From IMG/VR virus record IMGVR_UViG_3300037247_001689, positions 1-64,000 of that record: a DNA stretch of 64,000 bases; one strand, 5' to 3'. Shown in pieces: positions 6,069 to 39,659 of this stretch. Position numbers and translations under genes: made by a program. The notes under the pieces were generated by a model. That model did not search any database, had not been told where the DNA came from, and saw only the letters and a list, made by a program, of their open reading frames with translations. This stretch comes from a virus. Numbering within the stretch: position 1 is the first letter of the stretch; each line of letters opens with the position of its first letter.

Positions 6069-7903
6069 TATCTAAATCACAGGCAAGACAAGAATTAAGA
6101 ATCAGAAAAGCCAAAAGAGAATTATCCAGGCGAAGCGTTTTCCACTTCCTAAAATATACCTTCCGGCATTACAAATATGAGAACTGGCACCATAAAGTAG
6201 TTTCCGATTTTTACAAATCACTTATTGAAAGAAAAATCACAAGAGGAATTATCGAATTACCTCCAAGACACAGCAAGACAGAGGGTTGCGAGAGGGCAAT
6301 GGCTTGGGCATATGGTAAAATGCACAAAGATAAAGACGGGAATATCATCAGAAAAGGATGTGATGAGAAAATAATCCACTGTTCTGCAACAATGCCAAGG
6401 GCAAGGAAAACGTCTGTAAATGTGAAAAGGATAGTAAAGGATAATTTGTTTACCGAGGTGTTCCCTAAATTCTTAAGAGAAGGTGTCAGCCGTACCAGGA
6501 CTTTAAAAGGTGTCAAAGATATAAAAGAAGATCAGAATACTTTCTGGGAACTGGGAAGCGGTACCCGGGGCAGTTTTTTAGCAGCAGGTGTTCAAGGTAG
6601 TATTACAGGTGAGGGGTTTACAATTGGAAATATCGATGATCCTACCGGTGGCGCTAAAGATGCAAATTCGCCCACTGTCCAAGAATCAGAAGAAGAGTGG
6701 TTTACTGGAACCTTTATGGATAGGCAGGACGATGAAGACAGCGTTATAATGCTTACAATGCAGCGTTGGGGCATTAAAGATATGATAGGCAGAAGGCTTT
6801 TGAATGAAGGGATGGCATCATACAACACACACAAGCCACAAAAAGGAGTTCCTGAATGGAATGGGATGGATGAGGGTGAATGGCATGTCCTTTGTTTGCC
6901 AAGGTTAATGGATGAAGAGGCTATGGAATGGAAGCATCCACTTGACCCACGAAAAATAGGGGAAGTGCTTTGGCCTCAAAGATACTCTTTAAAAATGGCC
7001 TTAAAGTTCAAAAAGAATTTGCCTCATTACATCTGGGAAGCCAAACACCAACAAAGACCAAAATTAAGAGGCGGTAATCTAATTAACAGAGCATGGTTTA
7101 AGGAACCTGTCTTAGACTTCCCTAGAGGTGGTAAACTAATCAGATTCTGGGATTTAGCATCAACACCAAAGGAAACCATTAAACAGAATAATCCCGATTT
7201 TACAGCAGGATCATTGCTCACTTTTGTTAATGGAATGATTTATATTATCGATATCGTAGCCACTCAAATTGCCACTAAAGCGAAGTATGATTTAATGAAA
7301 CAAACCGCTGTCCTTGATGATCAAATGTATGGATCGGTCATGCAGATTTGGGAAGAGGAAGGTGGCGCTTCCGGTAAAGATGTTACTGATACCCTGAATG
7401 ATTTACTAGTTGCCCACTTAAGAGCGCCATTGAGAGTTAGGAAGTCCAAAAACTTCTATATTGAACTCCTAGCAAACAAGGCAGAGACAGGAAACGTGAG
7501 AGTCGTCAAAGGCCCATGGCTACATGTAAAACGAGATAACGCGACATTCTTTGATTCAGCTGAAGCCTTCCCAAGCAAATTAGTCCATGACGATGATATT
7601 GATTCCACTGCAAAAGCCTGTTTTATGTTAACCGGTGGTGTAATTGATCCTGCAGATGGCAGAGACAGAGAACAAAACGAACACAAAACAACCGACCACA
7701 ACCCCGAAACCGAAAAGCAAACCCTTTTTCAAACCCTAGAAAAACAAATCCTCAAAGGAAAAGTAGACGAATCTAAAATAAAAGACATCGATTTAACCTT
7801 AAAAATCCTTGAAGAAATAAGCCGGAAATACGTTGATAAAGGGGATTCCGAGACGGCTGGATTAATATTTGATGAGATAGACCGGATAGAATTATTAAAA
7901 TAA
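6065..7903 (+). CDS. terL: Terminase large subunit (DNA-packaging ATPase/nuclease)
   Basis: 612 residues from a TTG start that overlaps the terS stop. The ATPase half has a terminase-type Walker A (PPRHSKTE, residues 66-73), an adjacent adenine-binding region and an acidic Walker B-like IDD near residue 191. The nuclease half has FWDLAS at ~360, an EEEGG segment and HDDDIDS near 525, matching the acidic residues of the RNase H-like nuclease in this family (TIGR01630-like). It drives ATP-powered DNA entry through the portal and cuts the concatemer. Confidence 0.88.
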   Translation: MISKSQARQELRIRKAKRELSRRSVFHFLKYTFRHYKYENWHHKVVSDFYKSLIERKITRGIIELPPRHSKTEGCERAMAWAYGKMHKDKDGNIIRKGCDEKIIHCSATMPRARKTSVNVKRIVKDNLFTEVFPKFLREGVSRTRTLKGVKDIKEDQNTFWELGSGTRGSFLAAGVQGSITGEGFTIGNIDDPTGGAKDANSPTVQESEEEWFTGTFMDRQDDEDSVIMLTMQRWGIKDMIGRRLLNEGMASYNTHKPQKGVPEWNGMDEGEWHVLCLPRLMDEEAMEWKHPLDPRKIGEVLWPQRYSLKMALKFKKNLPHYIWEAKHQQRPKLRGGNLINRAWFKEPVLDFPRGGKLIRFWDLASTPKETIKQNNPDFTAGSLLTFVNGMIYIIDIVATQIATKAKYDLMKQTAVLDDQMYGSVMQIWEEEGGASGKDVTDTLNDLLVAHLRAPLRVRKSKNFYIELLANKAETGNVRVVKGPWLHVKRDNATFFDSAEAFPSKLVHDDDIDSTAKACFMLTGGVIDPADGRDREQNEHKTTDHNPETEKQTLFQTLEKQILKGKVDESKIKDIDLTLKILEEISRKYVDKGDSETAGLIFDEIDRIELLK

Positions 7904-18205: not shown

Positions 18206-18452
18206 GCCAATTGATCACGATACAATAAGTATCATCAAAGGAGCGCACTGCAAAGATTGTGGATGGCCTATAATAGATGCTTGCTGTAATGGAAGTTTTA
18301 CAGATCACAAAGATGCAAAAGAATGGGACTGGTGGAATTATTGTTCTAATAAAGGATGTAATAACCATGAAGGCGAAGGGATTTTTCAAGATCGTCTTGA
18401 TTGGATTGTTTACGATGATGAAAATATAAAGCAGGAGACGAATGGATCATAA
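18198..18452 (+). CDS. Zinc-cluster hypothetical protein, 84 aa
   Basis: Contains HCKDCGW, ACC, and NYCSNKGCNNHEG: at least three Cys pairs with a His. AAGGAGACGA precedes the ATG. Probably a metal-binding protein; unrecognised. Confidence 0.5.
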   Translation: MDKPIDHDTISIIKGAHCKDCGWPIIDACCNGSFTDHKDAKEWDWWNYCSNKGCNNHEGEGIFQDRLDWIVYDDENIKQETNGS

Positions 18453-18894
18453 ACTATGTAAAGACTGCAAAGGATATTGTTGTGATGATATTGGCTTTAC
18501 ATTATCACCTGAAGATTTAAAGGAAAGGTTTAATAATAGATATTCAATTTTTATTTTCACCCATAAAGATAATATTCATCCAGATGGGGAAGTTAAAGAA
18601 TATAAAAGACAGGTGTATCATTACCGCTGTACTGAGCATAATAAGGAAACAGGGAAATGCAACATATATGGCGGGAGACCTGAATTATGTAGAACGTACC
18701 CTGATAACGGGTTTTGTGGGTATGAATCTGTCAAAATAAAAGCCGTTATCGAGGATAGACCAAAATGGTTTGGTTTTGGAATGAAAGCAGAAGACTGGAG
18801 AAGTGGCATGGGTGGTAGTGAAAGATTTACAAAAGGAATAAAGCGTAAAAACCCGTATAATGATATTGACAAGAAATTAAACGAAGCAATTTAA
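18442..18894 (+). CDS. YkgJ-family cysteine-cluster protein
   Basis: 150 residues after AGGAGACGA. The CxxCxxxCC cluster (CKDCKGYCC, residues 5-13) with later C.IYGGRPELCRTYP is the signature of YkgJ/UPF0153 (PF03692), a family proposed to bind an Fe-S cluster or zinc and related to flagellin lysine methylase. Follows a GNAT gene, hinting at a protein-modification theme, which is inference. Confidence 0.7.
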   Translation: MDHKLCKDCKGYCCDDIGFTLSPEDLKERFNNRYSIFIFTHKDNIHPDGEVKEYKRQVYHYRCTEHNKETGKCNIYGGRPELCRTYPDNGFCGYESVKIKAVIEDRPKWFGFGMKAEDWRSGMGGSERFTKGIKRKNPYNDIDKKLNEAI

Positions 18895-19763: not shown

Positions 19764-20084
19764 TTGAAAATATCCATAATCTTGTTACTTGCTAGTATTT
19801 TTATGGCAGTATCAACGTTTGCGGCAACAGAAACGATTCAGGAGGCATTGAACCCGCCTGATAACTTTGTTGCGATTTCTACACCGGCTGTAATGGCTGA
19901 ATTTATATACGCGATAGACCGATCAACGGCTCTTTCAAATAACGTATTGAGTCAATTTAATATTATTAAGAATTTACACGAGACAGGTTTAAATACCACT
20001 TATGAAATTGCCGGTTTTTGGGACAAATCCTTGGAGGTTGAAACTGTCCTTAAGTTTCCCTGCTTGATACAAATCATAAGTTAA
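19764..20084 (+). CDS. Small secreted protein, 106 aa
   Basis: TTG start after AGAGGCAAA. Residues 1-21 form a signal peptide (basic start, ILLLASIFMAVSTFA, then cleavage before ATET). The mature part is polar and unrecognised. Followed by a strong terminator. Confidence 0.5.
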   Translation: MKISIILLLASIFMAVSTFAATETIQEALNPPDNFVAISTPAVMAEFIYAIDRSTALSNNVLSQFNIIKNLHETGLNTTYEIAGFWDKSLEVETVLKFPCLIQIIS

Positions 20085-20113
20085 AAACACCTGGCAGAAA
20101 GAAATCAAATATA

Positions 20114-20147
20114 AAAAGCTCATAATTGTTACTAATTATGAGCTTTT
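20114..20147. terminator. Strong terminator hairpin
   Basis: AAAAGCTCATAATT (20114-20127), loop GTTACT, AATTATGAGCTTTT (20134-20147): a perfect 14-bp stem ending in TTTT, usable in both directions. Confidence 0.8.
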
Positions 20148-21019
20148 GGCAGTATCAGAGCGAGAACTCGTTAAACTAATTGAAGTACATTGACGGCTAA
20201 TCGGTGCCATTTCTGCAAATTCCGATTTGGTATAACGATAAGCAATATAAAAGAAAGATCAAAATAGAAAGATTTAAATCACAGTAACTAATAAGGAGAA
20301 AAATGATAAAGCTAAGTCTATAACCACCGCCAAGTGTAAAATAGATTAGGCTAAAAATAAAAAATGATTTCCGATTGCCTATCGTTCGGAGTCGCCCTAA
20401 TTGGGTTATCAAATGTAGGCTTCATGGAGTAAACCACAAAGAAAGAAATCAAACAGAGGTTGCCGTTAGGGTATCGCCAGTGAGATAGAAATATGGTGCA
20501 AATACAGGCGTTTAAGTTGCCAGTTCGAAATATGAGGCTATAAATTCCAATTTGGTGCCCACAGAGTACGTGACCGTAACGTTTTTCCGGCTAGTCAATA
20601 AACTAAGAAGCCATCTGTACACAGTTTAAGTCTGTGCCTCTGTTTTTGAAAAATGAATAATAACACCATACAGACCTATACGGGAACCATAAGCGGTTAA
20701 TCGGAAATAGAAAGCTCTCCGATCCTTAAAATTAAAAAACGTATAGAGATGGTATGGTATTAAGCAGGGATTAAATTGGTTGCTGAATATTAGGTAAGGT
20801 ATGACCGGATACAGCTTTACCGGGTAACTATTGCTAAAAGGAATAGATAATGCAAGTTTATTTACTGGCATAAATTATAGTCTGAAAAGATGAGTCCCTG
20901 CTTTTCAATAATAGTAAGTTGCAGTTAAATTTATTGCATGATAATTGATCATTTGATTGCAGGTTTTTACCCAAAAAAGTGTATTGTAAAATGTAGAAAT
21001 ACCCTTGGTAAATTTAACT
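20148..21019. other. Long non-coding stretch with scattered hairpins
   Basis: About 870 bases without a convincing ORF on either strand; the longest open frames are minus-strand, without ribosome sites. Visible elements: AATCGG...CCGATT around 20197-20225, and CACAG(TTTAAGT)CTGTG at 20620-20636 shortly before a T-run. It may encode structured RNAs or be decayed sequence. Confidence 0.5.
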
Positions 21020-21087
21020 GTTTCAATAATAGTAATAAATGTACATTAAATGTTTATTTAGTGTACATTGTTTAGTGTTATTGAAAC
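21020..21087. repeat. Large two-tier inverted repeat
   Basis: Outer arms GTTTCAATAA (21020-21029) and TTATTGAAAC (21078-21087); inner arms AATGTACATTAAAT (21038-21051) and ATTTAGTGTACATT (21056-21069) around GTTT. The tiers are separated by symmetrical 8-base internal loops. As RNA this is one long hairpin. Confidence 0.7.
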
Positions 21088-21144
21088 CTCGTTTATGATC
21101 ACCTGAAAAGGTTAGATCAAGGCATGGGTCAATCATAACATTAA

Positions 21145-21181
21145 GGCGGTGGGTTTATTGATGCTATATATGACCACCGCT
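21145..21181. repeat. Inverted repeat GCGGTGG/CCACCGC
   Basis: GCGGTGG and CCACCGC enclose about 20 bases in the same non-coding block, a short distance before a possible 46-aa ORF. Confidence 0.5.
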
Positions 21182-21232
21182 AAACATTTTATTAATAATA
21201 TTTTTCTTTTAAAAAATTTAATAGAGTCCATT

Positions 21233-21373
21233 ATGAAATCAAAAATTGAAGAAGCCATTAAAACGCTTCTGGAAAAGATCAAAGAAGATACTAAACCAAA
21301 TGATGCGGTTAGTATCTCGATAGCTGTTTTAAATTTAGCTAATGCTAGAGCAGTACCGGTGCCAGAAAAATGA
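21233..21373 (+). CDS. Possible 46-aa protein
   Basis: ATG 21233 opens a 46-residue helical frame (MKSKIEEAIKTLLEKIKEDTKPNDA...). Composition is protein-like, but the ribosome site (AGAG) is weak and the surroundings are RNA-like. Uncertain. Confidence 0.35.
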   Translation: MKSKIEEAIKTLLEKIKEDTKPNDAVSISIAVLNLANARAVPVPEK

Positions 21374-21504
21374 TACCGAACAGCGGTTGAAAACGTACTA
21401 TTCCATGTTAACCCTCCCTGTAATTGCACAACGTAAACCCCTAATACGGTGGTTGGTGAAAACAACTTACATAGGAAGTCATAACAATATAACTAAAATA
21501 TGAG

Positions 21505-21527
21505 CGTGACTGTCGTGAGAGAGCGGC
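21505..21527. repeat. Hairpin family member 1 (loop TGAGAGAG)
   Basis: GTGACT then GTCG (21512-21515), loop TGAGAGAG, CGGC (21524-21527). Relatives lie at 21728-21743 and 21807-21825; stem bases differ while pairing is kept. Confidence 0.5.
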
Positions 21528-21543
21528 GTTTTAATAAATATAT

Positions 21544-21618
21544 TCTGTCGTACTCAATAGGTGAGTTGCTTCCGTTGGCCAACGGAGTATCTAAGTTCAA
21601 TTCTTAGCGACAGAGCCA
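21544..21618 (+). tRNA. tRNA-like element with 8-base anticodon loop, CCA encoded
   Basis: Acceptor TCTGTCG (21544-21550) pairs perfectly with CGACAGA (21608-21614); discriminator G and CCA follow (21615-21618). D-arm ACTC/GAGT with AATAGGT loop. T-arm CTAAG-TTCAATT-CTTAG (21591-21607) fits the consensus loop exactly. The anticodon arm is odd: TTCCG/CGGAG closes an 8-base loop TTGGCCAA, and the sequence CCGTTGGCCAACGG is itself a palindrome. Amino-acid identity is therefore unclear; it may be a degenerate, frameshifting or mimic tRNA. Confidence 0.55.
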
Positions 21619-21620
21619 AA

Positions 21621-21661
21621 CAAATGATACCAGTAACGGTGGTTCAATTCCACCTCGTTTG
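21621..21661 (+). ncRNA. tRNA acceptor/T-arm minihelix-like element
   Basis: CAAATGA (21621-21627) pairs with TCGTTTG (21655-21661). A T-arm GGTGG-TTCAATT-CCACC (21638-21654) stacks on it exactly as in tRNA, but only ten bases replace the D and anticodon arms. No CCA follows (CCGA instead). It starts two bases after the preceding tRNA-like element. Confidence 0.45.
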
Positions 21662-21681
21662 CCGAGACTTGGTAGGAGCAA

Positions 21682-21698
21682 GATGGTTCGATTCCATC
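21682..21698 (+). ncRNA. Third T-arm-like hairpin
   Basis: GATGG-TTCGATT-CCATC: perfect 5-bp stem with consensus T-loop. Flanks CAA/TTG can extend it with one bulged C. No matching acceptor arm found, so it may be a remnant. Confidence 0.4.
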
Positions 21699-21727
21699 CT
21701 TGACTTGTTGGTACAAGGGGCATGACT

Positions 21728-21743
21728 GGCGTGAAAGAGCGCC
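21728..21743. repeat. Hairpin family member 2 (loop TGAAAGAG)
   Basis: GGCG, loop TGAAAGAG, CGCC, preceded by ATGACT as in member 1. The stem differs from member 1 by changes that keep pairing. Confidence 0.5.
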
Positions 21744-21806
21744 ACCCAAATGATAAGAATGTGTCTAAACGTACACCGACCATGGCAAGGCTAAATGGGT
21801 GCGTGG

Positions 21807-21825
21807 CGGAGGTGAGAGGACTTCG
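21807..21825. repeat. Hairpin family member 3 (loop GTGAGAGGA)
   Basis: CGGAG, loop GTGAGAGGA, CTTCG. Looser relative of the two hairpins upstream. The remaining bases up to 21920 show no ORF. Confidence 0.4.
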
Positions 21826-21920
21826 TAAAATCATGTAAAGTGCCATTGATCGTCCTGTTTTTATCTTAACAGTAATAAGTGGCCTTATTGTCAATGGTAC
21901 TTTAGATGGTTTTAAAATGT

Positions 21921-21995
21921 GGGGGCGTAGCTCAGAGGTAGAGTACCTGTTTTGCAAGCAGGGTGTCGGGATTTCGAAATTCCCCGCTTCCACCA
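21921..21995 (+). tRNA. tRNA-Ala (TGC)
   Basis: Cloverleaf: acceptor GGGGGCG with CGCTTCC (two G-T pairs), D-arm GCTC/GAGT, anticodon arm CCTGT-TTTGCAA-GCAGG with anticodon TGC, T-loop TTCGAAA, discriminator A and encoded CCA. The inner T-stem pair is a T-T mismatch, a small departure from the norm. Confidence 0.85.
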
Positions 21996-22029
21996 CAAAT
22001 CCACCCGATTAATTAACGGGTTAACAACA

Positions 22030-22063
22030 GGCTGGATAGGCTTTTTTAGCGGATAGTCCAGCC
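22030..22063. terminator. Inverted repeat after tRNA-Ala
   Basis: GGCTGGA (22030-22036) and TCCAGCC (22057-22063) with a T-rich 20-base loop. Probably a terminator or processing hairpin for the RNA block, although the T-run lies inside the loop. Confidence 0.45.
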
Positions 22064-22135
22064 TCTCATGCAGAAAGATTGGCAGTTGTTCTAGATTGTT
22101 GCCATTCAACACTATATGATGAAATCTTGCGAACA

Positions 22136-23970: not shown

Positions 23971-24427
23971 GACAATCAGTAAACTCGGAAAGCCGAAACC
24001 AGAAACTGAGCGACAAAAAATAACAAGGCTAACTGAAGATGTTATGTTCCAAGCCAAAAAGAAACATAAGAATCAGTACGTATTAGACGAAATAGAAAAA
24101 GCGGCAAGGGAGATAACGGATAGAGATGGTCATTTTATTTGTTCCAGAGAAGGTATTGGCAATAAAATGTTTGGATTTGAAGACCATGAAAACCCAATTA
24201 TCGGGTTGCATATCGGGGTAATGCCAAGCGTTAATTCAAGTTGCCTCAATATCTTCACCAGTAAGATATCAAATATCATTCATGAAAATGGTGACAAGGA
24301 TTTGATTGTTGATATCATCGTTTCTATCATTGTGACAGAGCTAAAAGAAAGATTTGGTAAATCTAAAGAGTATATTTTTACCGGAAGCGTCGACAACAAA
24401 AACGAAGGGATTGTAAAGAAAAGGTGA
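23951..24427 (+). CDS. Hypothetical protein, 158 aa
   Basis: Helical N-terminus (ETERQKITRLTEDVMFQAKKKH), then an alpha/beta region. No catalytic motif recognised. Confidence 0.5.
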   Translation: MDKSIFETISKLGKPKPETERQKITRLTEDVMFQAKKKHKNQYVLDEIEKAAREITDRDGHFICSREGIGNKMFGFEDHENPIIGLHIGVMPSVNSSCLNIFTSKISNIIHENGDKDLIVDIIVSIIVTELKERFGKSKEYIFTGSVDNKNEGIVKKR

Positions 24428-24428
24428 T

Positions 24429-24944
24429 ATGTCTAAAAAAAACGTTGATTCAGGATATTGGAAAGTCACGATATTTAACACTGATGTTCCCCATAATTTG
24501 TCTTACGACCCGGGGCATATTGAATTCACACATGATCAATTTCCGCATGTAGTGAGGAAACAGAACACATGGCTAAAAGGGGAAGGCGCTTATGCAAGGG
24601 ATGACTTTGTGGCTCCGAAAGTACTGGACGTGTGGAATATGATGTACGGAAAATTCCCTTGTAAAAGCTTTATTTTTGAGCGGTGGGTAATCCAAAAGGA
24701 ATATGAGTGCTTTAAATACAAACTAATGGGTTACGATAACGAAGAAATAAAAGTCATCCATGAAAATATGATTGGCGATGACTTGGCTTTGAAAACTCAT
24801 TTTATTGAATTCCTTTACATGCTCAGGAAGATTAAATCAGACTTAACAGAAGATAAAACAATTAAACTGATTGATTATAAACGAGGAAAAGAAGAACAGA
24901 TAAAAAGAATGATGGATAATCTTGATTCAGTGTTAGGTAGTTAA
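24429..24944 (+). CDS. Hypothetical protein, 171 aa
   Basis: Aromatic-rich first half, helical second half ending in a charged KRGKEEQIKRMMDNL segment. AAAGGTGAT precedes the ATG. Its stop lies within the palindrome at 24941-24954. Confidence 0.5.
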   Translation: MSKKNVDSGYWKVTIFNTDVPHNLSYDPGHIEFTHDQFPHVVRKQNTWLKGEGAYARDDFVAPKVLDVWNMMYGKFPCKSFIFERWVIQKEYECFKYKLMGYDNEEIKVIHENMIGDDLALKTHFIEFLYMLRKIKSDLTEDKTIKLIDYKRGKEEQIKRMMDNLDSVLGS

Positions 24945-24954
24945 TACGTATTAA
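24941..24954. promoter_or_regulatory. Palindrome TTAATACGTATTAA upstream of an RHH-like gene
   Basis: Perfect 14-bp palindrome ending seven bases before the GGAG... start region of the next gene. The core AATACGTATT returns at 25247-25256 and a relaxed form (AATATGTAT) at 26158-26166, each upstream of a gene. Probable operator family. Confidence 0.6.
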
Positions 24955-24963
24955 GGAGAATTA

Positions 24964-25194
24964 ATGACTAAAAAGATAAAAGTCACAATGGAATTATCGC
25001 TAAAAGATATTAAAATTGCAGATGAACTTAAATTACGGCTTGATGCCCGTAGCCGTACTGCAGCAATTTCCTTATCCTTGCGTGTTACAGGCTTTTTATC
25101 TGAGCTAATCATCTCAGGCAAAGAGATTTTTGTTAAAGACAAGAACGGGAACGTCAGTCAGTTTTATATTGTTGGTCTGAATGATGATTCTTAG
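24964..25194 (+). CDS. Ribbon-helix-helix-like DNA-binding protein
   Basis: 76 residues after AAGGAG. The pattern 'L..RLDARSRTAAISLSLRVTGFLSELI.SGKEIFVKDKNGN' fits phage RHH proteins, in which a short strand is followed by SR..AI..A....L..L and a G.. l.D.dG hairpin. Likely regulator of the palindromes around it, including its own. Confidence 0.5.
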   Translation: MTKKIKVTMELSLKDIKIADELKLRLDARSRTAAISLSLRVTGFLSELIISGKEIFVKDKNGNVSQFYIVGLNDDS

Positions 25195-25473
25195 ATGTAG
25201 GCATTTTCTAAACAATTTTAAACACAAACATAATGGATAGGTATTTAATACGTATTCAAACAGTTGGCTATATGCCTTTTTATGTCTATCTGTTTTCGAA
25301 GAACAGGACAATTGTTCATAAACCTAATCATGGGGTATCCGGCAATTGAGACATAAGATTAGAATAATGGAAGCGGATAGATTGAAATTAAACGCCAATA
25401 AAAGTAAATCTGGTTTAATGCGTGGACATGTATAGCCAACTGGCAAATTTAAAAACATTTAGAAGGAGACAGG
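25195..25473. promoter_or_regulatory. Intergenic region with AATACGTATT and hairpins
   Basis: 279 bases without an ORF. AATACGTATT palindrome at 25247-25256; GAACA...TGTTC hairpin near 25300-25316; then an AGAAGGAGACAGG ribosome site before the next gene. Likely control region for the 25474 gene. Confidence 0.5.
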
Positions 25474-26079
25474 ATGAAATTAGATTCAAATCACGAAAAT
25501 GCAGCGTTTATAGTTGTCTATGACACCGATTATGATTGCAAAATTGAAAATGTGATACGCGCTGACGATGAAAAAAATGAATATACATGCTATGACCATG
25601 ATCCAAAAACTGGTGAATTCATCAGAGACAAAGATGGACTTGTTATTCAAAAAACAGCAACAGCGAACATAAGATTTCTGGATAGAAGGCTTCCAAAAAA
25701 CAAAGATATCTTAGATAGAATTGGTGAAAAAACAATTATTCCTAATTGCAAAGTTTTGGGTAATAATATTGTTGAAATGTTTGGGATACAATTCAAACAA
25801 TACAGTGGACCTTCTGAAGAATTTTATACTATTGATGATATAGCGGCCAGAAATGATTTAAAAAAACAATCAATTGAGGCTTGTCTTATTAAATATGGGA
25901 TTATGACAAAAACCCTTGAATGGTCAGAGTACGAGCATGAAGTTGGTGGCGTAGAAGAATGGAATGGAAAGTGTGTTGCTATATCTGGCTTTGTTATCCG
26001 TAATATCATGACAGAACCAGATAAATATGAATCGCATATACATGAGGAATTTATATTAGAGTTAATGGAAAAACCCTAA
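25474..26079 (+). CDS. Hypothetical protein, 201 aa, paralogue of next gene
   Basis: Acidic. The last ~80 residues parallel the 128-aa neighbour (IDDIA..., ...KYGIMTKTLEW, and the ending EEFILELMEKP versus EKFILELMKLP). Gene and 3' flank (CCCACGTTTG) appear duplicated together. Unknown function. Confidence 0.5.
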   Translation: MKLDSNHENAAFIVVYDTDYDCKIENVIRADDEKNEYTCYDHDPKTGEFIRDKDGLVIQKTATANIRFLDRRLPKNKDILDRIGEKTIIPNCKVLGNNIVEMFGIQFKQYSGPSEEFYTIDDIAARNDLKKQSIEACLIKYGIMTKTLEWSEYEHEVGGVEEWNGKCVAISGFVIRNIMTEPDKYESHIHEEFILELMEKP

Positions 26080-26204
26080 TAACACCCACGTTTGCAAAGA
26101 GTTCACTGGTAAAGTAAAAAACAATTAATAATGATTGATATCTTCCGATATGTATTTAATATGTATCTTTTAATCGTTATTTTATAACTAATAATGGAGT
26201 AAAA

Positions 26205-26591
26205 ATGAATGTAGCATGGCTTTCTATTAAGCATAATTCAACATCACCGATTCCAGTTGACTTTAATTTTAATGAGAAGGAAAAAGTTTTTTCAATGTAC
26301 GGGATAAAGATCCGATATGATGATTTGCGTTTTAGCCAATTAACCCATATATCAGAATCTATTGGAGTTAGCGTGTCAGACATAAGGGAAAAGTTAGTCA
26401 AGTATGATTTAATGACAGATGATTTTACCTTTACATGGCATATGAAATACAAAGTCACTATAGACGGTAATGATACGGAAATAAACCCTGCAAGTTTAGT
26501 ATTACCAAGATTTTTTATCAGCGACAACCCGCCTTGGAACGGGATATATTCAGATGAAAAATTCATCCTTGAATTGATGAAACTGCCATAA
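26205..26591 (+). CDS. Hypothetical protein, 128 aa, paralogue of previous gene
   Basis: Shares C-terminal organisation with the 201-aa product. Preceded by a gap (26080-26204) with an AATATGTAT palindrome-like element and by AATGGAG. Unknown function. Confidence 0.5.
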   Translation: MNVAWLSIKHNSTSPIPVDFNFNEKEKVFSMYGIKIRYDDLRFSQLTHISESIGVSVSDIREKLVKYDLMTDDFTFTWHMKYKVTIDGNDTEINPASLVLPRFFISDNPPWNGIYSDEKFILELMKLP

Positions 26592-26622
26592 ACAACCCAC
26601 GTTTGAACTTACCTCACCGATA

Positions 26623-26667
26623 GTGCAATATACGAGGAAAACAAGTCACAAACCTCAAATATTGCAC
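26623..26667. promoter_or_regulatory. Leader hairpin at the patatin-like gene
   Basis: GTGCAATAT (26623-26631) pairs with ATATTGCAC (26659-26667); inside, GAGG (26634-26637) pairs with CCTC (26653-26656). The hairpin ends four bases before the ATG and no Shine-Dalgarno lies between. The only GAGG is buried in the stem, suggesting translational control. Confidence 0.6.
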
Positions 26668-26671
26668 AGTC

Positions 26672-28102
26672 ATGAAAAAAATCATATCCGAACGAGAGCA
26701 TACCATCCCTATAAACAGGGTGATTAAGCTTGAAGAAGAAAAGACAAAGATCAACGGTAACTATAAAATAATATTAAAAATCACACACCCAAAAGGATTT
26801 AATCAGGATCTTCAAGCACTGGTCAGGGGCGGTATGCCAATGGTCACCATCCCCAGATTTATTGGTGACAAAAGACTCCAGACAAACAGAATTACCCTCA
26901 AAATTTGGCAGGATGTACCCGATGAAATCCCAGTCAAAAAAGAAACACCTATAGAAATTCCAAAGGCAAAAAATCCAGTCCCTCTTAAAAAGAAGAAAAC
27001 AAAATTTCTCTCTAATATCATTGATTACCATGAAATAGCATTAAAGAGAAGTATTGAGAGGGACGAAATCATTGCATCAAAAAGACATCACGTCAAAGAA
27101 TCGGTTGCGTTAAAACCTGTTGGATTAGATGGATTACGGATATTAACCGCTGATGACTGTGATTATTCAAGAGGCGTGACGATCATTCAGAACTTAATCA
27201 CGGCACTGAAAAAGCACAATAAGGCTGATGGGATTACAGTGATCGCTCAAAGAAAATTGCTTTGTGAATATTACGATGTTTTATCATTTTCAGGAGCTTC
27301 CACAATTATCGGGTTATATATCGCACTTGGTGAAAAAGCCTATGAAAAAGGAAATCTGGAAGCGTTTCTAAAATGGTATCAAACAGAACTATCAAAAGTT
27401 TATTCTCCAACTAGTAAAGGTGAACTATTCGAAAAAGGGAAAAGATTTTTACAAGGAATGAAGCCATTTAAGAAAATGCGTAAAAATCCGAATACTGGTT
27501 TTTCTCTGAAAAATGTAGAGAAAATAATTGGGGCGTTTTTCACTAATGAAAACACAGGCGAACCGTTCAGGATGGAAGATTTGCATTGTGAAGTCTACCA
27601 GCCTCTATTTCTTGATGATGAGCGAACTTTCGTTTACTCAAAAGCGGAAACTCCAAAACTAAAACTAGTTGATTTAGTCATCAATACTGCTTTGGATCCT
27701 AATTATTTCCAGACCAGAAAGATTGAAGACATGGGCATATCTCTTGGGCCTCTCAGAAGATCTTTTGATTTACCATTGGCACAAAACAACAATAATATAG
27801 AATTGGTTTCATTCGGTGCAGATTTAACGTATCAGGAATCAGAAGGAGAATTCGAGGGCATAACACCTGCTCAAAATTCATTCTTGCAGAAGCGAAAAGC
27901 ATACCGGATCGATCATGAAGACACACAGACCTATATGAATAACAATTCACATAAAGTAAAATATATGAGAATTGAGTCGCCACAAATTCCAGAGGTTTCT
28001 GAAAATTCAGTACTAGAAGGAGATCTTATCAGATGCAGAATGAGCGCAAAAGATACAGTTGTTATAACAAATGGTCAAAAAACATTATTAACGTGGAGTT
28101 AG
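26672..28102 (+). CDS. Patatin-like phospholipase-fold protein with altered active site
   Basis: 476 residues. The C-terminal ~330 follow the patatin order: LDG (about 151-153), FSGASTIIGLYIAL with candidate nucleophile Ser210, LVDLVINTALDPNYF, then EDMG with candidate Asp353, and IELVSFGAD. Usual motifs are GxSxG and DG(G/A); here they are G-A-S-T-I and D-M-G, so activity is uncertain. Residues 1-145 are an unrecognised beta/Lys-rich extension. Active patatins cleave membrane lipids. Position directly before the portal operon suggests a virion or lysis role; both are inference. Confidence 0.5.
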   Translation: MKKIISEREHTIPINRVIKLEEEKTKINGNYKIILKITHPKGFNQDLQALVRGGMPMVTIPRFIGDKRLQTNRITLKIWQDVPDEIPVKKETPIEIPKAKNPVPLKKKKTKFLSNIIDYHEIALKRSIERDEIIASKRHHVKESVALKPVGLDGLRILTADDCDYSRGVTIIQNLITALKKHNKADGITVIAQRKLLCEYYDVLSFSGASTIIGLYIALGEKAYEKGNLEAFLKWYQTELSKVYSPTSKGELFEKGKRFLQGMKPFKKMRKNPNTGFSLKNVEKIIGAFFTNENTGEPFRMEDLHCEVYQPLFLDDERTFVYSKAETPKLKLVDLVINTALDPNYFQTRKIEDMGISLGPLRRSFDLPLAQNNNNIELVSFGADLTYQESEGEFEGITPAQNSFLQKRKAYRIDHEDTQTYMNNNSHKVKYMRIESPQIPEVSENSVLEGDLIRCRMSAKDTVVITNGQKTLLTWS

Positions 28103-28103
28103 C

Positions 28104-28994
28104 ATGGAAACATTTTTAATTCTTATCGCGATTGCATCATTGTGTGCGATTGCATACTTTGCTTTTTTTAGGAAAATGAAGGATGAGCAAGAGCCTATAT
28201 TAACGGATGAATCATACAAAGATGTAGAATTACCGTCAAAAGAACCGGCAATGCGACCACATATGGACTATCAAAAAAGGATTGATAGTCTTTGGTTTCT
28301 GATCGTTAGAAGTGGACCTAAGATGATATTTAAAGCATTGATTAGTTTTGCTATCGTATCAGTTCTTACAGGTTATATATCAATTAAAAACGCAGAAAGA
28401 TTTGCAAAAATCGGTTCAGATATAGCGAGTGGTAATATAGTCGGGGCGATCAGTTCAACTTTCGCATTTGGCAGAGAACCGACACTGGAATTTATAAATG
28501 TATCTACTGGCAAGAATTCATACTTATCAGATAACGGGTTGAATGAATTTGCTTATATCGGTCAGAAAGATGGTACCGGATATGCGGTTATGAAAACTGT
28601 TTATTTAATGCAACATCATGATCCAGAACTATCTGTTGACAGTAATATATATAATAAGCCGATGACAGATATGACGGTTAGCGAATCAAGAAATCTTTGC
28701 CAGGAAAAATACAAGAAACATAATGGTGATTTAGTATCAATTGAAGAATGGGAATGGAGCCAATCGAATTATTTAGGCAGTAACCATTTTGACATCCCTA
28801 AAAGCCCTGAATGGACACGAACAGCAAATGAAAAAGATGATGATGATTTTAAAGTAATCCCCCATGAATTTAACGTCAAAAAGTATGTTAAGGACAACAA
28901 AATAGACAACGAAGAAAACGGTCAATGGGTTGATGGTGATGATTCGGATATATTTCTTCTAAGGTGCTCAATTAACTGGAAAATTAAAGAATAA
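28104..28994 (+). CDS. Membrane protein with possible formylglycine-enzyme/C-lectin-like domain
   Basis: 296 residues. Hydrophobic segments at about 3-20 and 78-98 place the C-terminal ~180 residues outside or in the periplasm. That part reads PMTDMTVSESRNLC... PEWTRTAN... DIFLLRCS, resembling the 'MS..EVTN..F', 'EWT' and 'GFRC' landmarks of the FGE-sulfatase/C-type-lectin fold seen in phage receptor-binding proteins. Weak but ordered similarity. It sits between the patatin-fold gene and the portal. Confidence 0.45.
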   Translation: METFLILIAIASLCAIAYFAFFRKMKDEQEPILTDESYKDVELPSKEPAMRPHMDYQKRIDSLWFLIVRSGPKMIFKALISFAIVSVLTGYISIKNAERFAKIGSDIASGNIVGAISSTFAFGREPTLEFINVSTGKNSYLSDNGLNEFAYIGQKDGTGYAVMKTVYLMQHHDPELSVDSNIYNKPMTDMTVSESRNLCQEKYKKHNGDLVSIEEWEWSQSNYLGSNHFDIPKSPEWTRTANEKDDDDFKVIPHEFNVKKYVKDNKIDNEENGQWVDGDDSDIFLLRCSINWKIKE

Positions 28995-28999
28995 ACAAT

Positions 29000-30868
29000 A
29001 TGCCACAAGACAATGAAGAAAAGGCTTTAGTCTATGGCCCACCAGCTATCAGGCAGGGAAGGAAAAAGAAACTTGAGAAACTAGAGGTTGATTTTTCGGA
29101 TTATAAAAATCAAATAAATTCATTAGTTGATCAGATATCCAAGAAATCATCTGACAATTATCAATACTCTGCAGCGTTCGATTATTACAGACAAACCAGT
29201 ACGACCGGGCCAAATTCAAATGTTTTAGAACAGCTTTACGGTAGAAATCTATCATTTTTAAGACAATATTATCACGTCAACTCACCGATCGATAAAATAA
29301 TATTTGGGAAACGTAACGAGCAAATGCGTATTTTATCGGATTGTGTGGCCGATGTTCCTGGGAAAATTGGCTGGCGTGTCGTTCATAAAGATAGTGATTC
29401 TCCTAAATTCAAAACAACACCTGAAATTGAAAAACAATGTCGATGGTATGAAGAACTAATCAAAAGTCCAAACCGAACCAGGCACCCGGGAAGACATCAA
29501 GATGCATTTATTTCAATGTTAGAATCAAAAATGTTATTTGACCGGATCCCAATTGAAAAATTAGAACATTTAGATTATCGAGGCAGTGGAGCTCCTGCAA
29601 GTTGGTTAGTCCCTGACGCTGCGACAATCAAGCCGACAACATGGGTATTACAAGCAATGGGTGGCGCTCCAGGCTATACGGGTAAAAACCAGCGTGACCA
29701 GGTTCAAAGATCAGTACACAATAGCCAAACAACAGCCAAGCAATTATTAGCGTACAACACAGAAGTGTACGCTAAAAATATGGCCAAAAAGAATGGCACC
29801 TCAGAGGCACATGAACTGTATAGACTTAATTCAGGACTCATAAAATGGGTTCAGGAGATGCCGGACCATCAAATTTCGGCAGGTTACACTGACAATGATA
29901 TCTCTGTTTTTATCGGGAATCCGAGTCCTCAAGTCAATGCGTGGGGATGGTCATCTGGATCCGCTTTCGAAAGATCGTTCGCTTTCGGTGAAGTGATATT
30001 TAAAATGACCGGTTATAATGCTGAGATATTCGACTCTAAAATGCCAGAGGGGATTATATCAATTAATGATTCAGGCCGGGATAAAAGAGGAAAGCAACAA
30101 TTCCACCAAAGAATGCTGGAAGAAGGTTCGGATAGATACAATAACATCATGGTTCAATTTGTCGGGGATCCTGAAAAAGATGTTAAATATCTAAAGATCA
30201 AAGATAAACCGACTGACATGCAATTCCAGCAATTGTTTATACTCTATGTAAAAATTAAATGCGCGGCATATGGTTTCGATTATCGCTTATTAAACCTTGA
30301 AGACGGAAAATCAGGTGGAATGGGTGGGTCAGGTGCCGCTGAAAAGCAAATGGATTTACAGAATGAAATGGGCATCGTTAGTGACACGAAATATATTGCC
30401 CATTGTTTAACACTTGCTTTAATTGATCCGTGGTCTCCTGATTTCAGAATGGAATTTGTGTATGATGTTTCGGATTCTGAAGAAAAGCTTAAAATATTAA
30501 AGAGCAAACTTGAGGTATCCAGTTCTGTATCTGAAATCAGAAAATCAGAAAATCTTGAAGCTGATTTTTGGAAAGCGGCACCGAAAGAACATCAGGAAAA
30601 GCTTAAGAAATTTTCATGGCCTCTATACTTCCCAACCATGACAAATGCACAGGTGGTCCAAATCGTACTGAAAGAAATGGATATCGAGCAGCAAGACAAA
30701 GCCATGGAACAAGAGCAAAAAATGGCAGATCAAGAACAGCCTGAAGGAGAAGAACCAGTTAAAGAAGACAAGGAAATAGCCGATTTACGTTCAGCAATCG
30801 GCAATCAGGAAGAAGAAAACGAGAAAATGGGAAAGAGTTGGAGTATTGATGTTAACCATCATTATTGA
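29000..30868 (+). CDS. Portal protein
   Basis: 622 residues. Start region with coiled segments, then the portal-type order: NSPIDKIIFGKRNEQMRILSD, PDAATIKP, a stem/wing region, LFILYVKIKCAAYGFDYRLLNLED, GGMGGSGAAEKQMDLQNEMG and an acidic C-terminus. The dodecameric portal sits at one capsid vertex and is the channel used by the terminase. Placed about 21 kb from terL, farther than usual. Confidence 0.78.
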   Translation: MPQDNEEKALVYGPPAIRQGRKKKLEKLEVDFSDYKNQINSLVDQISKKSSDNYQYSAAFDYYRQTSTTGPNSNVLEQLYGRNLSFLRQYYHVNSPIDKIIFGKRNEQMRILSDCVADVPGKIGWRVVHKDSDSPKFKTTPEIEKQCRWYEELIKSPNRTRHPGRHQDAFISMLESKMLFDRIPIEKLEHLDYRGSGAPASWLVPDAATIKPTTWVLQAMGGAPGYTGKNQRDQVQRSVHNSQTTAKQLLAYNTEVYAKNMAKKNGTSEAHELYRLNSGLIKWVQEMPDHQISAGYTDNDISVFIGNPSPQVNAWGWSSGSAFERSFAFGEVIFKMTGYNAEIFDSKMPEGIISINDSGRDKRGKQQFHQRMLEEGSDRYNNIMVQFVGDPEKDVKYLKIKDKPTDMQFQQLFILYVKIKCAAYGFDYRLLNLEDGKSGGMGGSGAAEKQMDLQNEMGIVSDTKYIAHCLTLALIDPWSPDFRMEFVYDVSDSEEKLKILKSKLEVSSSVSEIRKSENLEADFWKAAPKEHQEKLKKFSWPLYFPTMTNAQVVQIVLKEMDIEQQDKAMEQEQKMADQEQPEGEEPVKEDKEIADLRSAIGNQEEENEKMGKSWSIDVNHHY

Positions 30869-31205
30869 TTATCGGGAAATCAAACCTTTTCATTATATCA
30901 GGGAAAGCTGTTTTATTAATTTGTATCATTTGTTCAAATGTTCGGACACCTTCAGAAAAAAATATGCTATTACTCCCAGGGCGATGATCAATTGAGTAGT
31001 CCCAAAAAGACAAGGCGGTCCAATTATCTTTATGATGTAATTTAGCAATTCCAGCTTTGTTTGTTCTTTTAGGTGCAAGTTTCCCGTCAAAATTTTTCCA
31101 AGGAAGTTCATTGTTGTAAAATGAAATCCCAACTCTGTTTTCATTTTTTAGATAGTGTCCTTTAATTCCATCACAACAACCAAAATAATATGTTTTCAAA
31201 ATCAC
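30852..31205 (-). CDS. Hypothetical protein, 117 aa
   Basis: GTG start overlapping the ParB-like gene's stop (GTGA). Contains YYFGCCDGIKGHYL and WTALSFWDYSIDHRPGSNS; compact, aromatic-rich. The end overlaps the end of the portal gene on the other strand by 17 bases. Confidence 0.5.
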   Translation of the reverse strand: MILKTYYFGCCDGIKGHYLKNENRVGISFYNNELPWKNFDGKLAPKRTNKAGIAKLHHKDNWTALSFWDYSIDHRPGSNSIFFSEGVRTFEQMIQINKTAFPDIMKRFDFPIINNDG

Positions 31206-32830
31206 ATCTCCATTAGTTCAGATTCATTATTATTAGTAATCAATTCAAGTTTAGGTTTATTATTAAATAAATCAGGACAATAATCAGAAATATCGTTTAA
31301 CTCAGCTATCATTTTTTTATCATTCCGCTTATTCCATTTTAGATATATTTTAGACATTTTCCTGTAAATATCTTCGTGTCCTCTGTAAGGTAGATTCAAT
31401 ACTTTATTTAGCATTCCTTTGTATATTTTTTCGAATTTATAAGATTTCTTTTTCTTTTTTGGGAATAGTTGAGCTTTGGCTTTTGAAATTGTAAGTTTCC
31501 CCGATATTATTTTTTGGAGTGTTTCAGGTGATTTTTCTTTGATGGATTTGCAATCAAAAATATAAGCATGGTTTACATTTCTATCCCTTGATAGTAATTC
31601 GCAAGCTCTCCCTTTTTTTGCGTAGTCAACTTTTTGACTATGCATAGAATTCATGTTTTTAGATTTAGAATTTACGCCATTCATGTTAGTTTTTAATCTC
31701 TCTTGTGCTAATGCTTCGTATTCCTCAAGAAATTGGTCAACTGCGATAGCTGCTCTTTGTGATTTAGATAAATGCCTTCTATTGTCACCCATTGCATGGA
31801 CAAATGATCTCGCAGATCCAGGGCCTTTAAACGCCCTAAATTCTGGCTTTTTGTCATATTTTAAAGCAGACTTAAAACGATGTCTCCCATCTAATATTTT
31901 TCCTTCATATAACCACAACGGCTCATAGACTCCATTCTTTTCAACACTCTTATCAATTGCTTCTTGCTCTTCAATTGTCGCCTCTGGTATTAAATGAGCG
32001 AGTGGATGAATCTCTAATTTCTTCCAATTGAATTCTGTTGTTTTAGGTTTCTCATGTGTTTGGTAAAATTCAGCTTTGGCTTTGGCTATTTGTAGAAGTT
32101 CAGTATTTTCTTTTTTCTTCTCAGTTGCAGGTTCAACTCTGTGATTTTCTCTCTTTGAAATTTTACTGCTTGGTTCCCATTTTCCTTTTTTAGACCATTC
32201 TCCTTTTACCCATGCGTTTTTTACATAGTCGTATACTTCATTTAAAATTATCCAATTTCGTCTCGGCTTGTTCGGATTTTTAAGGTGGAATATGATACTA
32301 ATCTTTCCTTCATCTTCTTTTGGGCAACAAACAAAATAATGAGCGTCCTTATCAAGTTCAGCAATAATTCCAGTTTCTGATTCAGCTTGTTTCCTATTTT
32401 TGTCCAATGAAAAACCAACTCTATCAAAATATTCTTCAGTGAGTACTTTTGAATAACATCTGAGTTTGTAAATGATTTCATTCCATGGCGGGTTTTCTTG
32501 CGGCAGTATTGTGTAAGTATTTATATATTCAAGGATATCGTCACTCGACATTATCTTTTCAGGGACATTCACAATTTGCTGTCTAATTTCACCAATCCTA
32601 TTGTAAATTGGGTAAACACCATCTTCAATAAATAGAGGTTTTAAATAATCCAATAATGTACTTTGAAGTCTCATATCTCGTTCTATCACTTCCAGTTTTT
32701 TATACTTTTCATCCTCAACCGAAGTTGCATAAAAAACCATACTCACACTTTCAGGGGGTATCGAGTCACAATTTAGAGACGATATTGCATATGATCCTTT
32801 GTTACTTTTCCAGATTTGGTGCTTTTTCAA
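31202..32830 (-). CDS. ParB/Spo0J-like nuclease-domain protein
   Basis: 542 residues, TTG start after AGGAGACAATT. Residues ~275-360 hold the ParB N-terminal fold: HPLAHLIPE, IDKSVEKNGVYEPLWLYEGK, ILDGRHRFKSAL, and a following HLSKSQRAAIAV helix. The first ~250 residues are an unrecognised domain. Phage members of this family bind DNA or act as nucleases/CTP switches; partition without a ParA gene nearby is unlikely. Part of a six-gene minus operon. Confidence 0.65.
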   Translation of the reverse strand: MKKHQIWKSNKGSYAISSLNCDSIPPESVSMVFYATSVEDEKYKKLEVIERDMRLQSTLLDYLKPLFIEDGVYPIYNRIGEIRQQIVNVPEKIMSSDDILEYINTYTILPQENPPWNEIIYKLRCYSKVLTEEYFDRVGFSLDKNRKQAESETGIIAELDKDAHYFVCCPKEDEGKISIIFHLKNPNKPRRNWIILNEVYDYVKNAWVKGEWSKKGKWEPSSKISKRENHRVEPATEKKKENTELLQIAKAKAEFYQTHEKPKTTEFNWKKLEIHPLAHLIPEATIEEQEAIDKSVEKNGVYEPLWLYEGKILDGRHRFKSALKYDKKPEFRAFKGPGSARSFVHAMGDNRRHLSKSQRAAIAVDQFLEEYEALAQERLKTNMNGVNSKSKNMNSMHSQKVDYAKKGRACELLSRDRNVNHAYIFDCKSIKEKSPETLQKIISGKLTISKAKAQLFPKKKKKSYKFEKIYKGMLNKVLNLPYRGHEDIYRKMSKIYLKWNKRNDKKMIAELNDISDYCPDLFNNKPKLELITNNNESELMEM

Positions 32831-33111
32831 ATTGTCTCCTTTAAAATCATCTCAGATATGTCATCATAAACTTCTTGGCTCATTTCTGCATAATATCCTG
32901 TTTTACCGCCAGGGATCATTCCATTTTTAACTAAGTTTTCAGCTACTTCCCTGAAAACATCTATGGGCATAAACTCAGAATCACACATTGTAATTGCATT
33001 AGGCACACAACTATCAAGATTAACCATTGCTATCCCGTCAATTTTATTTATCACAGGAGCAGTGCAAACGAAAGCTATTGCTTGTATGAATTTTCTTCTG
33101 GTGAATTTCAA
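32827..33111 (-). CDS. Small protein with twin-arginine (Tat) signal
   Basis: 94 residues, TTG start. The N-terminus KFTRRKFIQ then AIAFVCTAPVI fits the S/T-R-R-x-F-L-K Tat motif and a mild hydrophobic core. Tat exports folded, often cofactor-bearing proteins. The mature part (~65 residues) has two cysteines and no recognised fold. Stop overlaps the ParB-like start. Confidence 0.55.
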   Translation of the reverse strand: MKFTRRKFIQAIAFVCTAPVINKIDGIAMVNLDSCVPNAITMCDSEFMPIDVFREVAENLVKNGMIPGGKTGYYAEMSQEVYDDISEMILKETI

Positions 33112-33112
33112 T

Positions 33113-33493
33113 TTAGCCTCTTGATTTATAAAATACTACAGTTGTGTAAAAACCACTTCTAAAACCTTTGTCTAAAACGTAGCAATGTTTAAATTCTTCA
33201 CTTATGATAACATGTTTTTTAATTTCTTCAGATGTATCTGTTTCAGAAAAGAAACTAACCGTGTCACACCCATCTTCAGGCCCGAAAGAAAAGTCAATCA
33301 TTGTCACATGATCTGTTAGATAATTTAGTAGAAAACCGACACTTACACATCTTTCTTTTGAGGGTAGAACGCAACCAAACCCTCCTGGAATAACTTTTTC
33401 AATTTTGCTGGGTTGAAGATTTATTTTGCAGAGTTCTTTAAGTGCATTTTTCTTTTCATTCGCAGGTGCCATTTCAGCTTTGAAGTTTTTCAT
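33113..33493 (-). CDS. Hypothetical protein, 126 aa
   Basis: TAGGAGACC precedes the ATG. N-terminal helix, then beta-rich part with conserved-looking aromatic residues at the end. No family recognised. Confidence 0.5.
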   Translation of the reverse strand: MKNFKAEMAPANEKKNALKELCKINLQPSKIEKVIPGGFGCVLPSKERCVSVGFLLNYLTDHVTMIDFSFGPEDGCDTVSFFSETDTSEEIKKHVIISEEFKHCYVLDKGFRSGFYTTVVFYKSRG

Positions 33494-33533
33494 GGTCTCC
33501 TAATCAATATATTCAATTGGTGTTAATGGTTGG

Positions 33534-33812
33534 TTAAGTCTTTTTATAATTTAAAAGAGATTTATGTATTGCTTGGCGTGAAACACCATATATATTCGCT
33601 ATGTAAGAAAAAGTTTTGCCTTGTTTCCTGAGAGTGTATATTGCTTTTATGTTCTTACCTTTTTTACTGCCACGCCTTCGTAAAATAATCTTTTCCTTTA
33701 GTAGCCTGTTACGTATTGGGGATATTGAACAGTTAAATATTTTTGCTATTTTAAATATCCCTGTGCCAGATTCGTACATCTTTTTAATCAGTTTTGAATC
33801 AAGATTTAGCAT
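33534..33812 (-). CDS. Double-HTH DNA-binding protein
   Basis: 92 residues with two similar HTH units: LIKKMYESGTGIFKIAKIFNCSISPIRNRL and AIYTLRKQGKTFSYIANIYGVSRQAIHKSL (split by Lys/Arg-rich linker). Each resembles resolvase/Hin-type or homeodomain-like HTHs; no recombinase catalytic domain is present. Possible regulator of this minus operon. Confidence 0.6.
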   Translation of the reverse strand: MLNLDSKLIKKMYESGTGIFKIAKIFNCSISPIRNRLLKEKIILRRRGSKKGKNIKAIYTLRKQGKTFSYIANIYGVSRQAIHKSLLNYKKT

Positions 33813-33864
33813 TTTATATTCTTTATAATTAAACAGCCAACAACATGTTAACTGTTTTTATGGT

Positions 33865-34179
33865 TTATTTATCGGCAATTGTTCCCGCAACTTTTTCTGC
33901 CTGTTCAAAAGTCATCGTCATCAATGCAAAAGCTTGCGGTTTGGTGAATCCTTTTTTAACTAAATCTTCATACATCCGCCAGTATAGATCGGTTAAAACA
34001 TCACTAATCTTGTTGGTAATCTTTGATTCTTTCACGACATCCAGAACAATATTACCTATGTCAATAACAGTTTTAATTTCCAGTCTTTGTCGTTCTACCT
34101 GTTGAGTAGAATAGTCTTCTTGTGCAAAACAAAAAGTTGATGCGAGAAGTAATATTAACAGTAAAATTAACTTTTTCAA
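33865..34179 (-). CDS. Small secreted protein, 104 aa
   Basis: TTG start after AGGAGACGA. Residues 1-20 are a signal peptide (KKLILLLILLLASTFCFA, cleavage before QED). Mature part is helical with DVLTDLYWRMYEDLVKKGFTKPQAFALM. First gene after a promoter. Function unknown. Confidence 0.6.
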   Translation of the reverse strand: MKKLILLLILLLASTFCFAQEDYSTQQVERQRLEIKTVIDIGNIVLDVVKESKITNKISDVLTDLYWRMYEDLVKKGFTKPQAFALMTMTFEQAEKVAGTIADK

Positions 34180-34224
34180 TTCGTCTCCTGATTAAATTTA
34201 ATAAAAAAATAACATCCAGACTTT

Positions 34225-34253
34225 AAAATAATAAATAACTTATAACCTGTCAA
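34225..34253 (-). promoter_or_regulatory. Promoter of the minus operon 34179-30852
   Basis: On the minus strand TTGACA (34253-34248), 17 bases containing ATAAGTTAT, TATTTT (34230-34225). Lies upstream of the secreted-protein gene. Confidence 0.55.
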
Positions 34254-34343
34254 GATAATAAATTACATCTTTGCTAAGTCCTCCTATATATGCAACTATA
34301 AACGCAAAACAGACTATTATCTACATATTCCCACGGAAAAGCT

Positions 34344-39266: not shown

Positions 39267-39269
39267 TAA

Positions 39270-39580
39270 TTAAATATCATTTTGGCAGGAATGATCTCCA
39301 CATTTACACTTTTCAAAAGGGAAAAGAATTGGTTGTAAAAACGAAATACTCATCCCATTATCGAAGAACATAAGATGGTTAGTTTCTAAAACTTCTCTGC
39401 CAGTATTAACTTTACTGACATCAACTTCTGGTTTCCAATCTAAACCGGTTAAAGAAGCAATCTGGACCTTATCAGAATCAATATTGTACTCACCATATGA
39501 GATATTAATGTTCCAAAATGTTCTTCATAATCGCCATTAAATTGTGTTCCTTCATAATAAAATTTATAAGTTGCATCCAT
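39270..39580 (-). pseudogene. Frameshifted small gene
   Basis: ATG 39580 follows GGGGAATTAAG and promoter copy 2. The frame MDATYKFYYEGTQFNGDYEEHF breaks near 39520; one extra T in a TTTT run would join it to WNINISYGEYNIDSD and onward to a stop at 39270-39272. The continued frame ends with CKCGDHSC. It is either a real 1-base deletion, a sequencing error, or a programmed slip. Function unknown. The leader resembles that of the 55783 gene. Confidence 0.6.
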
Positions 39581-39630
39581 CTTAATTCCCCAATTTTGAT
39601 GTTATGGTTTAATTCCGATTTCTTGATCCA

Positions 39631-39659
39631 AATATATTTTATCTGTCGGAATCCGTCAA
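39631..39659 (-). promoter_or_regulatory. TTGACGGATTCCGACA promoter cassette, copy 2
   Basis: Minus strand: TTGACG (39659-39654), 17-base spacer, TATATT (39636-39631). Faces the frameshifted gene. The divergent plus side leads to 39753. The upstream flank (ATAAGTTATTATTTAC) is shared with copies 3 and 4. Confidence 0.75.

Follow-up and report, generated by a model that had tools for sequence, protein, structure and literature searches.

A structured, gene-poor block in a viral genome appears to end in a diverged array of a new class of cis-acting RNA, set within a decaying tRNA cluster. The class, as we cautiously favor it, comprises a pseudoknot followed by a GAGAGA hairpin, is shared by unrelated phages and by plasmids, forms arrays after head genes and before tRNAs, and would set transcript ends or stability.

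Setting and Contents of the Block

The block (positions 20085–22063) lies in a window of 64,000 nucleotides, the whole stretch of DNA analyzed here, which belongs to a 116,332-base viral record (IMGVR_UViG_3300037247_001689) and includes genes for a terminase large subunit, a portal protein, and a GroES-like protein. Searches with the GroES-like protein, the terminase, and a third protein returned no close relatives and gave matches just to identical fragments of the sample itself, and the evidence was therefore drawn from the repeats within the block and their relatives elsewhere. Gaps between ORFs outside the block measure at most 377 bp in the window, making the ~1.8 kb gap in the block an outlier. 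The first-pass annotation, made from the sequence alone, had described almost no ORFs here, which agrees with the size of the gap and slightly overstates the case given a plausible 46-codon ORF within a 74-codon one. The block folds better than the rest of the window (mean folding z −1.3 vs. −0.16, 120-nt windows); longer block segments gave z values of −2.1 to −7.8 and 12 control segments −1.0 to +1.8, with the strongest signals in the block at 21020–21087 and 21800–21920. The block as a broken protein gene, an outcome that the annotation had named as refuting, was rejected, as the tested ORFs of the block had no match in PHROGs (E < 0.1) or Pfam. The Rfam 15 covariance models that it had proposed as a check recognized the tRNA-Ala and matched nothing else in the block. 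The block is not one single RNA, and its features are as follows:

20114–20147 (+), terminator-like perfect hairpin of 14 bp, for both strands, closing the ORF at 19764–20084
20150–21019 (+), structured non-coding DNA, by folding z
21020–21087 (+), two-tier 68-nt hairpin, by inverted-repeat and folding analysis
21233–21373 (+), plausible small gene of 46 aa (MKSKIEEAIK...), an ORF inside a 74-codon ORF
21504–21527 (+), probable element copy W1, 3′ half only: GUGAC and P3 (GUCG / UGAGAGAG / CGGC), by models R1 and R2
21544–21618 (+), putative degenerate tRNA-Asn-like cloverleaf with encoded CCA, by shuffles (0/200) and similarity to contig L063
21638–21654 (+), isolated T-arm (apparent tRNA remnant), by T-arm scan
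21682–21698 (+), isolated T-arm (apparent tRNA remnant), by T-arm scan
21720–21743 (+), probable element copy W2, 3′ half only: AUGAC and P3 (GGCG / UGAAAGAG / CGCC), by model R1
21763–21825 (+), probable element copy W3, GAC replaced by GGC, by R1 (3′ half) and a string shared with locus L017
21826–21914 (+), imperfect long hairpin in the gap from W3 to tRNA-Ala, 24-nt arms, 88%
21921–21995 (+), intact tRNA-Ala (TGC), by ARAGORN and Rfam

The structures that the annotation had listed were recovered among these: a 14-bp terminator (20114–20147, 100% complementary, 6-nt loop), a 68-base two-tier hairpin (21020–21087, 32-nt arms, 84% complementary, z about −7.6 to −7.8), three related small hairpins (21504–21525, 21720–21741, and 21801–21822, with 100, 86, and 68% identity), three consensus T-arms, and one normal tRNA.

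The tRNA Gene and tRNA Relics

The sole tRNA in the window according to ARAGORN and Rfam is the tRNA-Ala(TGC) at 21921–21995. Shortly after it, we noted by eye a AGGCTGGA...TCCAGCCT hairpin with a T-run in its loop (22029–22064). Exactly three T-arms, defined by a perfect 5-bp stem and a TTCRANY loop, occur in the 64 kb, all of them in the block (TTC at 21596, 21643, and 21687), against 0.095 expected per strand by chance (shuffles). A cloverleaf at 21544–21614, followed by GCCA, has a 7-bp acceptor stem with a T-arm in register, a combination found once in the window and in none of 200 shuffles. It also has an 8-nt anticodon loop and a shortened D-loop, and was missed by both ARAGORN and the Rfam tRNA model. 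Over 86 columns, it shares 70% identity (E = 5e-5) with a tRNA-like sequence in a tRNA-rich phage contig (L063, 3183–3266), in which a GTT anticodon can be seen by inspection. From these features, we read 21544–21618 as a degenerate tRNA-Asn-like gene that may still function. No complete tRNA surrounds the T-arms at 21638–21654 and 21682–21698, which resemble the 3′ remnants of tRNAs. The tRNA-Ala, the degenerate tRNA-Asn-like gene, and the T-arm remnants resemble phage tRNA clusters with degenerate tRNAs, whereas here they are interleaved with tandem copies of the element described below.

A Widespread Pseudoknot and Hairpin Element

The repeat GCRTGACTGNCGTGARAGAGCG served as the starting query and was scanned against the IMG/VR and GTDB genomes. 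Several of its matches were extragenic and shared a longer form, from which a 32-nt consensus was derived as the second query; its matches lay in unannotated DNA of several plasmids and of the phages MD18, PS3, and RcXuper. At least 120 viral stretches contain the element in its full form, CGACACCTGC-N(0-25)-AGTGGTGTGAC. An alignment of 42 copies (A1) gave the covariance model R1, built without any window sequence, and led to 142 copies at 100 loci. As the family search started from W1 and W2, later agreement between the window and the family is partly circular. Host chromosomes rarely carry the element: 1 of 143 Gammaproteobacteria genomes was positive, and that one was the seed itself. Matches to the window-derived repeat were also found in coding DNA (L023, L024, and L025), which show that matches by chance do occur.

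The element is laid out as NGCGACACCUGCN–linker–AGUGGUGUGAC–stem–GAGAGA–stem. In the predicted fold, the loop of a short stem (P1) forms a pseudoknot (P2) with the bases immediately 5′ of an invariant GAC, and a hairpin with a GAGAG(A) loop (P3) lies 3′ of P2; the usual P1 loop in the family is GACACCU, and its P2 partner GGUGU. Across 142 aligned copies, 93% of the paired cells are paired, and covariation reached 0.307 vs. 0.067 in shuffled alignments (0/500), being strong in the outer pair of P1 and in P3. P2 is nearly invariant across the copies, in part an effect of the scan pattern, by which it was fixed. Compensatory double changes were seen in three model-found copies at two P2 pairs, which we count as two events since the L100 and L103 copies may share ancestry. 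Variation in P2 among the half-type copies, such as ACGCC/GGCGU in the Caulobacter phage CcrColossus, agrees by eye with the pairing, and shuffle tests on single half-type copies were weak. The middle P2 pair is nearly invariant, as a search for compensated double mutants gave only two stretches; these candidates, one a true member without complementarity at that pair and one a probable chance match, were rejected. Taken as comparative evidence, the pattern of covariation shows the predicted fold to be one of the RNA.

Two further readings were discarded. A short peptide encoded by the repeat (V-T-x-V-R/K-E-R) was rejected as P3 covaries family-wide and most copies are intergenic. An RNase P RNA-like reading of L013 and L019 was rejected as none of the six viral records searched had a match to RF00010. 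The L019 record also has a c4-2 antisense RNA match (7241–7314) that falls below threshold, at 30 bits against a gathering score of 41, and lies a short way upstream of a half-type element. On the Escherichia coli plasmid p2010C_5028-1, a divergent element lies between tRNA-Ile and dnaB (L168, about 1970–2026), with P1 GGAU/AUCC and P2 CACC/GGUG by eye.

Genomic Placement of the Element

Copies are usually intergenic, often directly after a stop codon or directly before a tRNA, and occur singly or in tandem, with arrays of up to five. The ORF ending 6–12 nt upstream encoded a major head protein (about 350–410 aa) in 10 of the 10 loci tested, nine of which match one family (phrog_1328) and so do not amount to ten independent lineages. 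Among the other genes found upstream is one for a gp2.5-like single-strand-binding protein. For 7 of 110 copies, a tRNA starts 21–28 nt after the GAC, where chance would give 0.87. At L017, a half-type copy lies 5 nt before tRNA-Arg, and the same array holds a shortened 60-nt tRNA (1029–1088), scored at 39.2 bits by Rfam, with ARAGORN silent. A permuted tmRNA match in the CcrColossus phage is followed downstream by half-type copies set among tRNA-Met genes. This match (L170, 1102–1485; permuted and alphaproteobacterial tmRNA models at 83.8 and 53.5 bits, both above gathering) adjoins the tRNAs and half-type elements, and the record lists no feature there. The flanking genes are co-directional only about 3:1, a rough figure from simple ORF rules and crude gene calls. 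Terminator-like hairpins were found downstream of 9 of 100 copies vs. upstream of 3, a weak enrichment that is not decisive.

The Probable Window Copies W1–W3

In a search of the entire window without filters, R1 placed its best match at W1 (21506–21527, E = 0.0084), its second best at W2 (21723–21743, E = 0.11), and its fourth at the 3′ half of W3 (21803–21824, E = 8.6); a second model, R2, also ranked the W1 and W2 sites first (E = 0.014 and 0.46). Compared with a pattern of GUGAC followed by P3 with a GAGAG loop, W1 has every part, W2 has AUGAC and a GAAAG loop, and W3 has GUGGC. A looser descriptor, written after W1–W3 were known, found four sites on the + strand, of which three are the W copies, against 0.655 expected per strand. 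The predicted helices of W3 are P1 GUC/GAC, P2 ACGUAC/GUGCGU, and P3 CGGAG/CUUCG, with GAGAG in the loop. In the P1/P2 shuffle test, W3 gave p = 0.04 with a 6-bp P2 of non-family sequence, and W1 (p = 0.26) and W2 (p = 0.75) were unsupported. The 5′ half of W3 has a 14-nt string, CTAAACGTACACCG, in common with L017, a locus found by its 3′ half only, outside of which the string lies; P1 is GUC/GAC in W3 and GGC/GCC in L017.

Judging from these resemblances, all three copies are probably diverged members of the family, and they look partly degenerate. It is doubtful that they are instead unrelated to it, as chance look-alikes or as tRNA D-arm debris in a decaying tRNA cluster. This would fit the 3′-half-only matches of W1 and W2, the modest E-values (0.0084, 0.11, and 8.6), and the coding-DNA cases (L023, L024, and L025), which show that chance matches occur; however, three copies within 320 nt rank first, second, and fourth in 64 kb, a compensatory T-G to G-C change separates W1 from W2, W3 and L017 share a second string, and the tRNA-adjacent position is typical of the family.

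With the copies taken as family members, the 3′ third of the block would, on the whole, seem best described by the identity of its parts: a decaying tRNA cluster with three diverged tandem copies of the element. The earlier suggestion of a cluster of tRNA-derived RNAs thus stands for 21370–21995 (the tRNA-Asn-like cloverleaf, the T-arm remnants, and tRNA-Ala). That of a new phage RNA class holds insofar as the small hairpins probably derive, as diverged copies, from a covarying element that is absent from Rfam and present in more than 100 other viral contigs; it does not extend to the block as one RNA. The large 5′ structures (20150–21230) are without homologues.

Possible Function and Relation to Known RNAs

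The element is apparently a large, undescribed phage RNA family, absent from Rfam 15 and from the open-access full text. Searches of canonical copies and arrays against Rfam 15 returned no family, with chance-level matches only at E up to 10; a motif-string search, covering open-access full text only, found nothing beyond apparently unrelated primer or gene sequences, and topic searches of open-access papers gave no obvious match. The novelty lies in the element as an RNA family and not in the tRNA relics.

We tentatively propose that the element acts in cis, within the transcript, where a compact RNA knot could stop 3′ exonucleases or mark a processing point, and in this way might protect the upstream mRNA and help define the 5′ ends of tRNAs located downstream. 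This possible exonuclease block or cut mark is suggested by the position of the element right after the stop codon of a head gene and right before tRNAs. The REP/BIME elements of enterobacteria, which are thought to shield upstream mRNA from 3′ exonucleases, are likewise tandem, intergenic, and located after stop codons, but the present element differs in its sequence and fold (a pseudoknot and a GAGAGA hairpin) and is found mostly in phages and plasmids.

Processive antitermination and self-cleavage are live rivals to protection or processing. The former, which we consider unlikely, would have the element bind the polymerase while being transcribed itself and permit readthrough of untranslated stretches such as tRNA arrays. 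The put RNA of the HK022 phage consists of two stem-loops of about 70 nt that act without protein (PMC9378689), and the element is similarly a short cis RNA with two adjacent structured parts, carried in phage (and plasmid) operons; it precedes untranslated tRNAs, and some copies are followed by terminator-like hairpins (9/100 downstream vs. 3 upstream). However, the terminator enrichment is weak, and put lies near early promoters, whereas the element is set apart by its pseudoknot and its placement mostly after late genes and before tRNAs. The family model also found no match in HK022 24000–40751 (best E 1.3), a stretch covering 16.8 of 40.8 kb, with the coordinates of put not located.

A small self-cleaving ribozyme that separates the genes of a polycistronic transcript and cuts ahead of tRNAs is improbable. 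The topology of the pistol ribozyme is broadly similar, and such an activity would suit the stem-loop that is pseudoknotted through its loop and succeeded by a hairpin, the core bases that hardly vary, and the tight spacing before tRNAs, but the element matches no Rfam ribozyme model, its hairpin loop is conserved and of fixed size, and it has no conserved bases outside the fold to mark a cleavage site.

GOLLD and ROOL RNAs are often found near tRNAs. Both are structured phage-associated RNAs (PMC12286853), much larger than the element and of other structure. That 20150–22063 is one giant ornate RNA of this type ending in a tRNA is very improbable despite its size, structure, phage origin, and 3′-end tRNA, as the GOLLD and ROOL models have no match in the block at E up to 10, a plausible ORF interrupts the stretch, and tRNA relics together with the new element already account for the 3′ third.

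If the reading of a new RNA family is right, the structural operons of many tailed phages contain a folded RNA that has no name, and the element would account for some of the "empty" yet structured DNA in phage tRNA clusters. Its placement after a head gene and before tRNAs predicts an effect on transcript ends or stability, which could be tested in carriers such as the Phaeobacter phage MD18, the Marinobacter phage PS3, and CcrColossus.

Other Structures of the Block and Neighboring Genes

In the 5′ part of the block, 20150–20999 gave a folding z of −2.1 on the + strand and −4.1 on the − strand, and a search for homologues of the structures at 20150–21230 found none. The 46-aa product (21233–21373) had no relatives in PHROGs or Pfam. 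No homologues were found here for the long hairpin at 21826–21914, which is spanned by a 120-nt window (21800–21919) with a folding z of −5.3. Elsewhere in the window, a protein with a CxxCxxCC zinc/iron-chelating domain (18442–18894; Pfam E = 1.4e-9) is encoded adjoining the GroES-like gene, and 34344–39266 encodes a 1640-aa polyvalent phage protein with inorganic pyrophosphatase-like (PF18823) and LPD1 (PF18796) domains.
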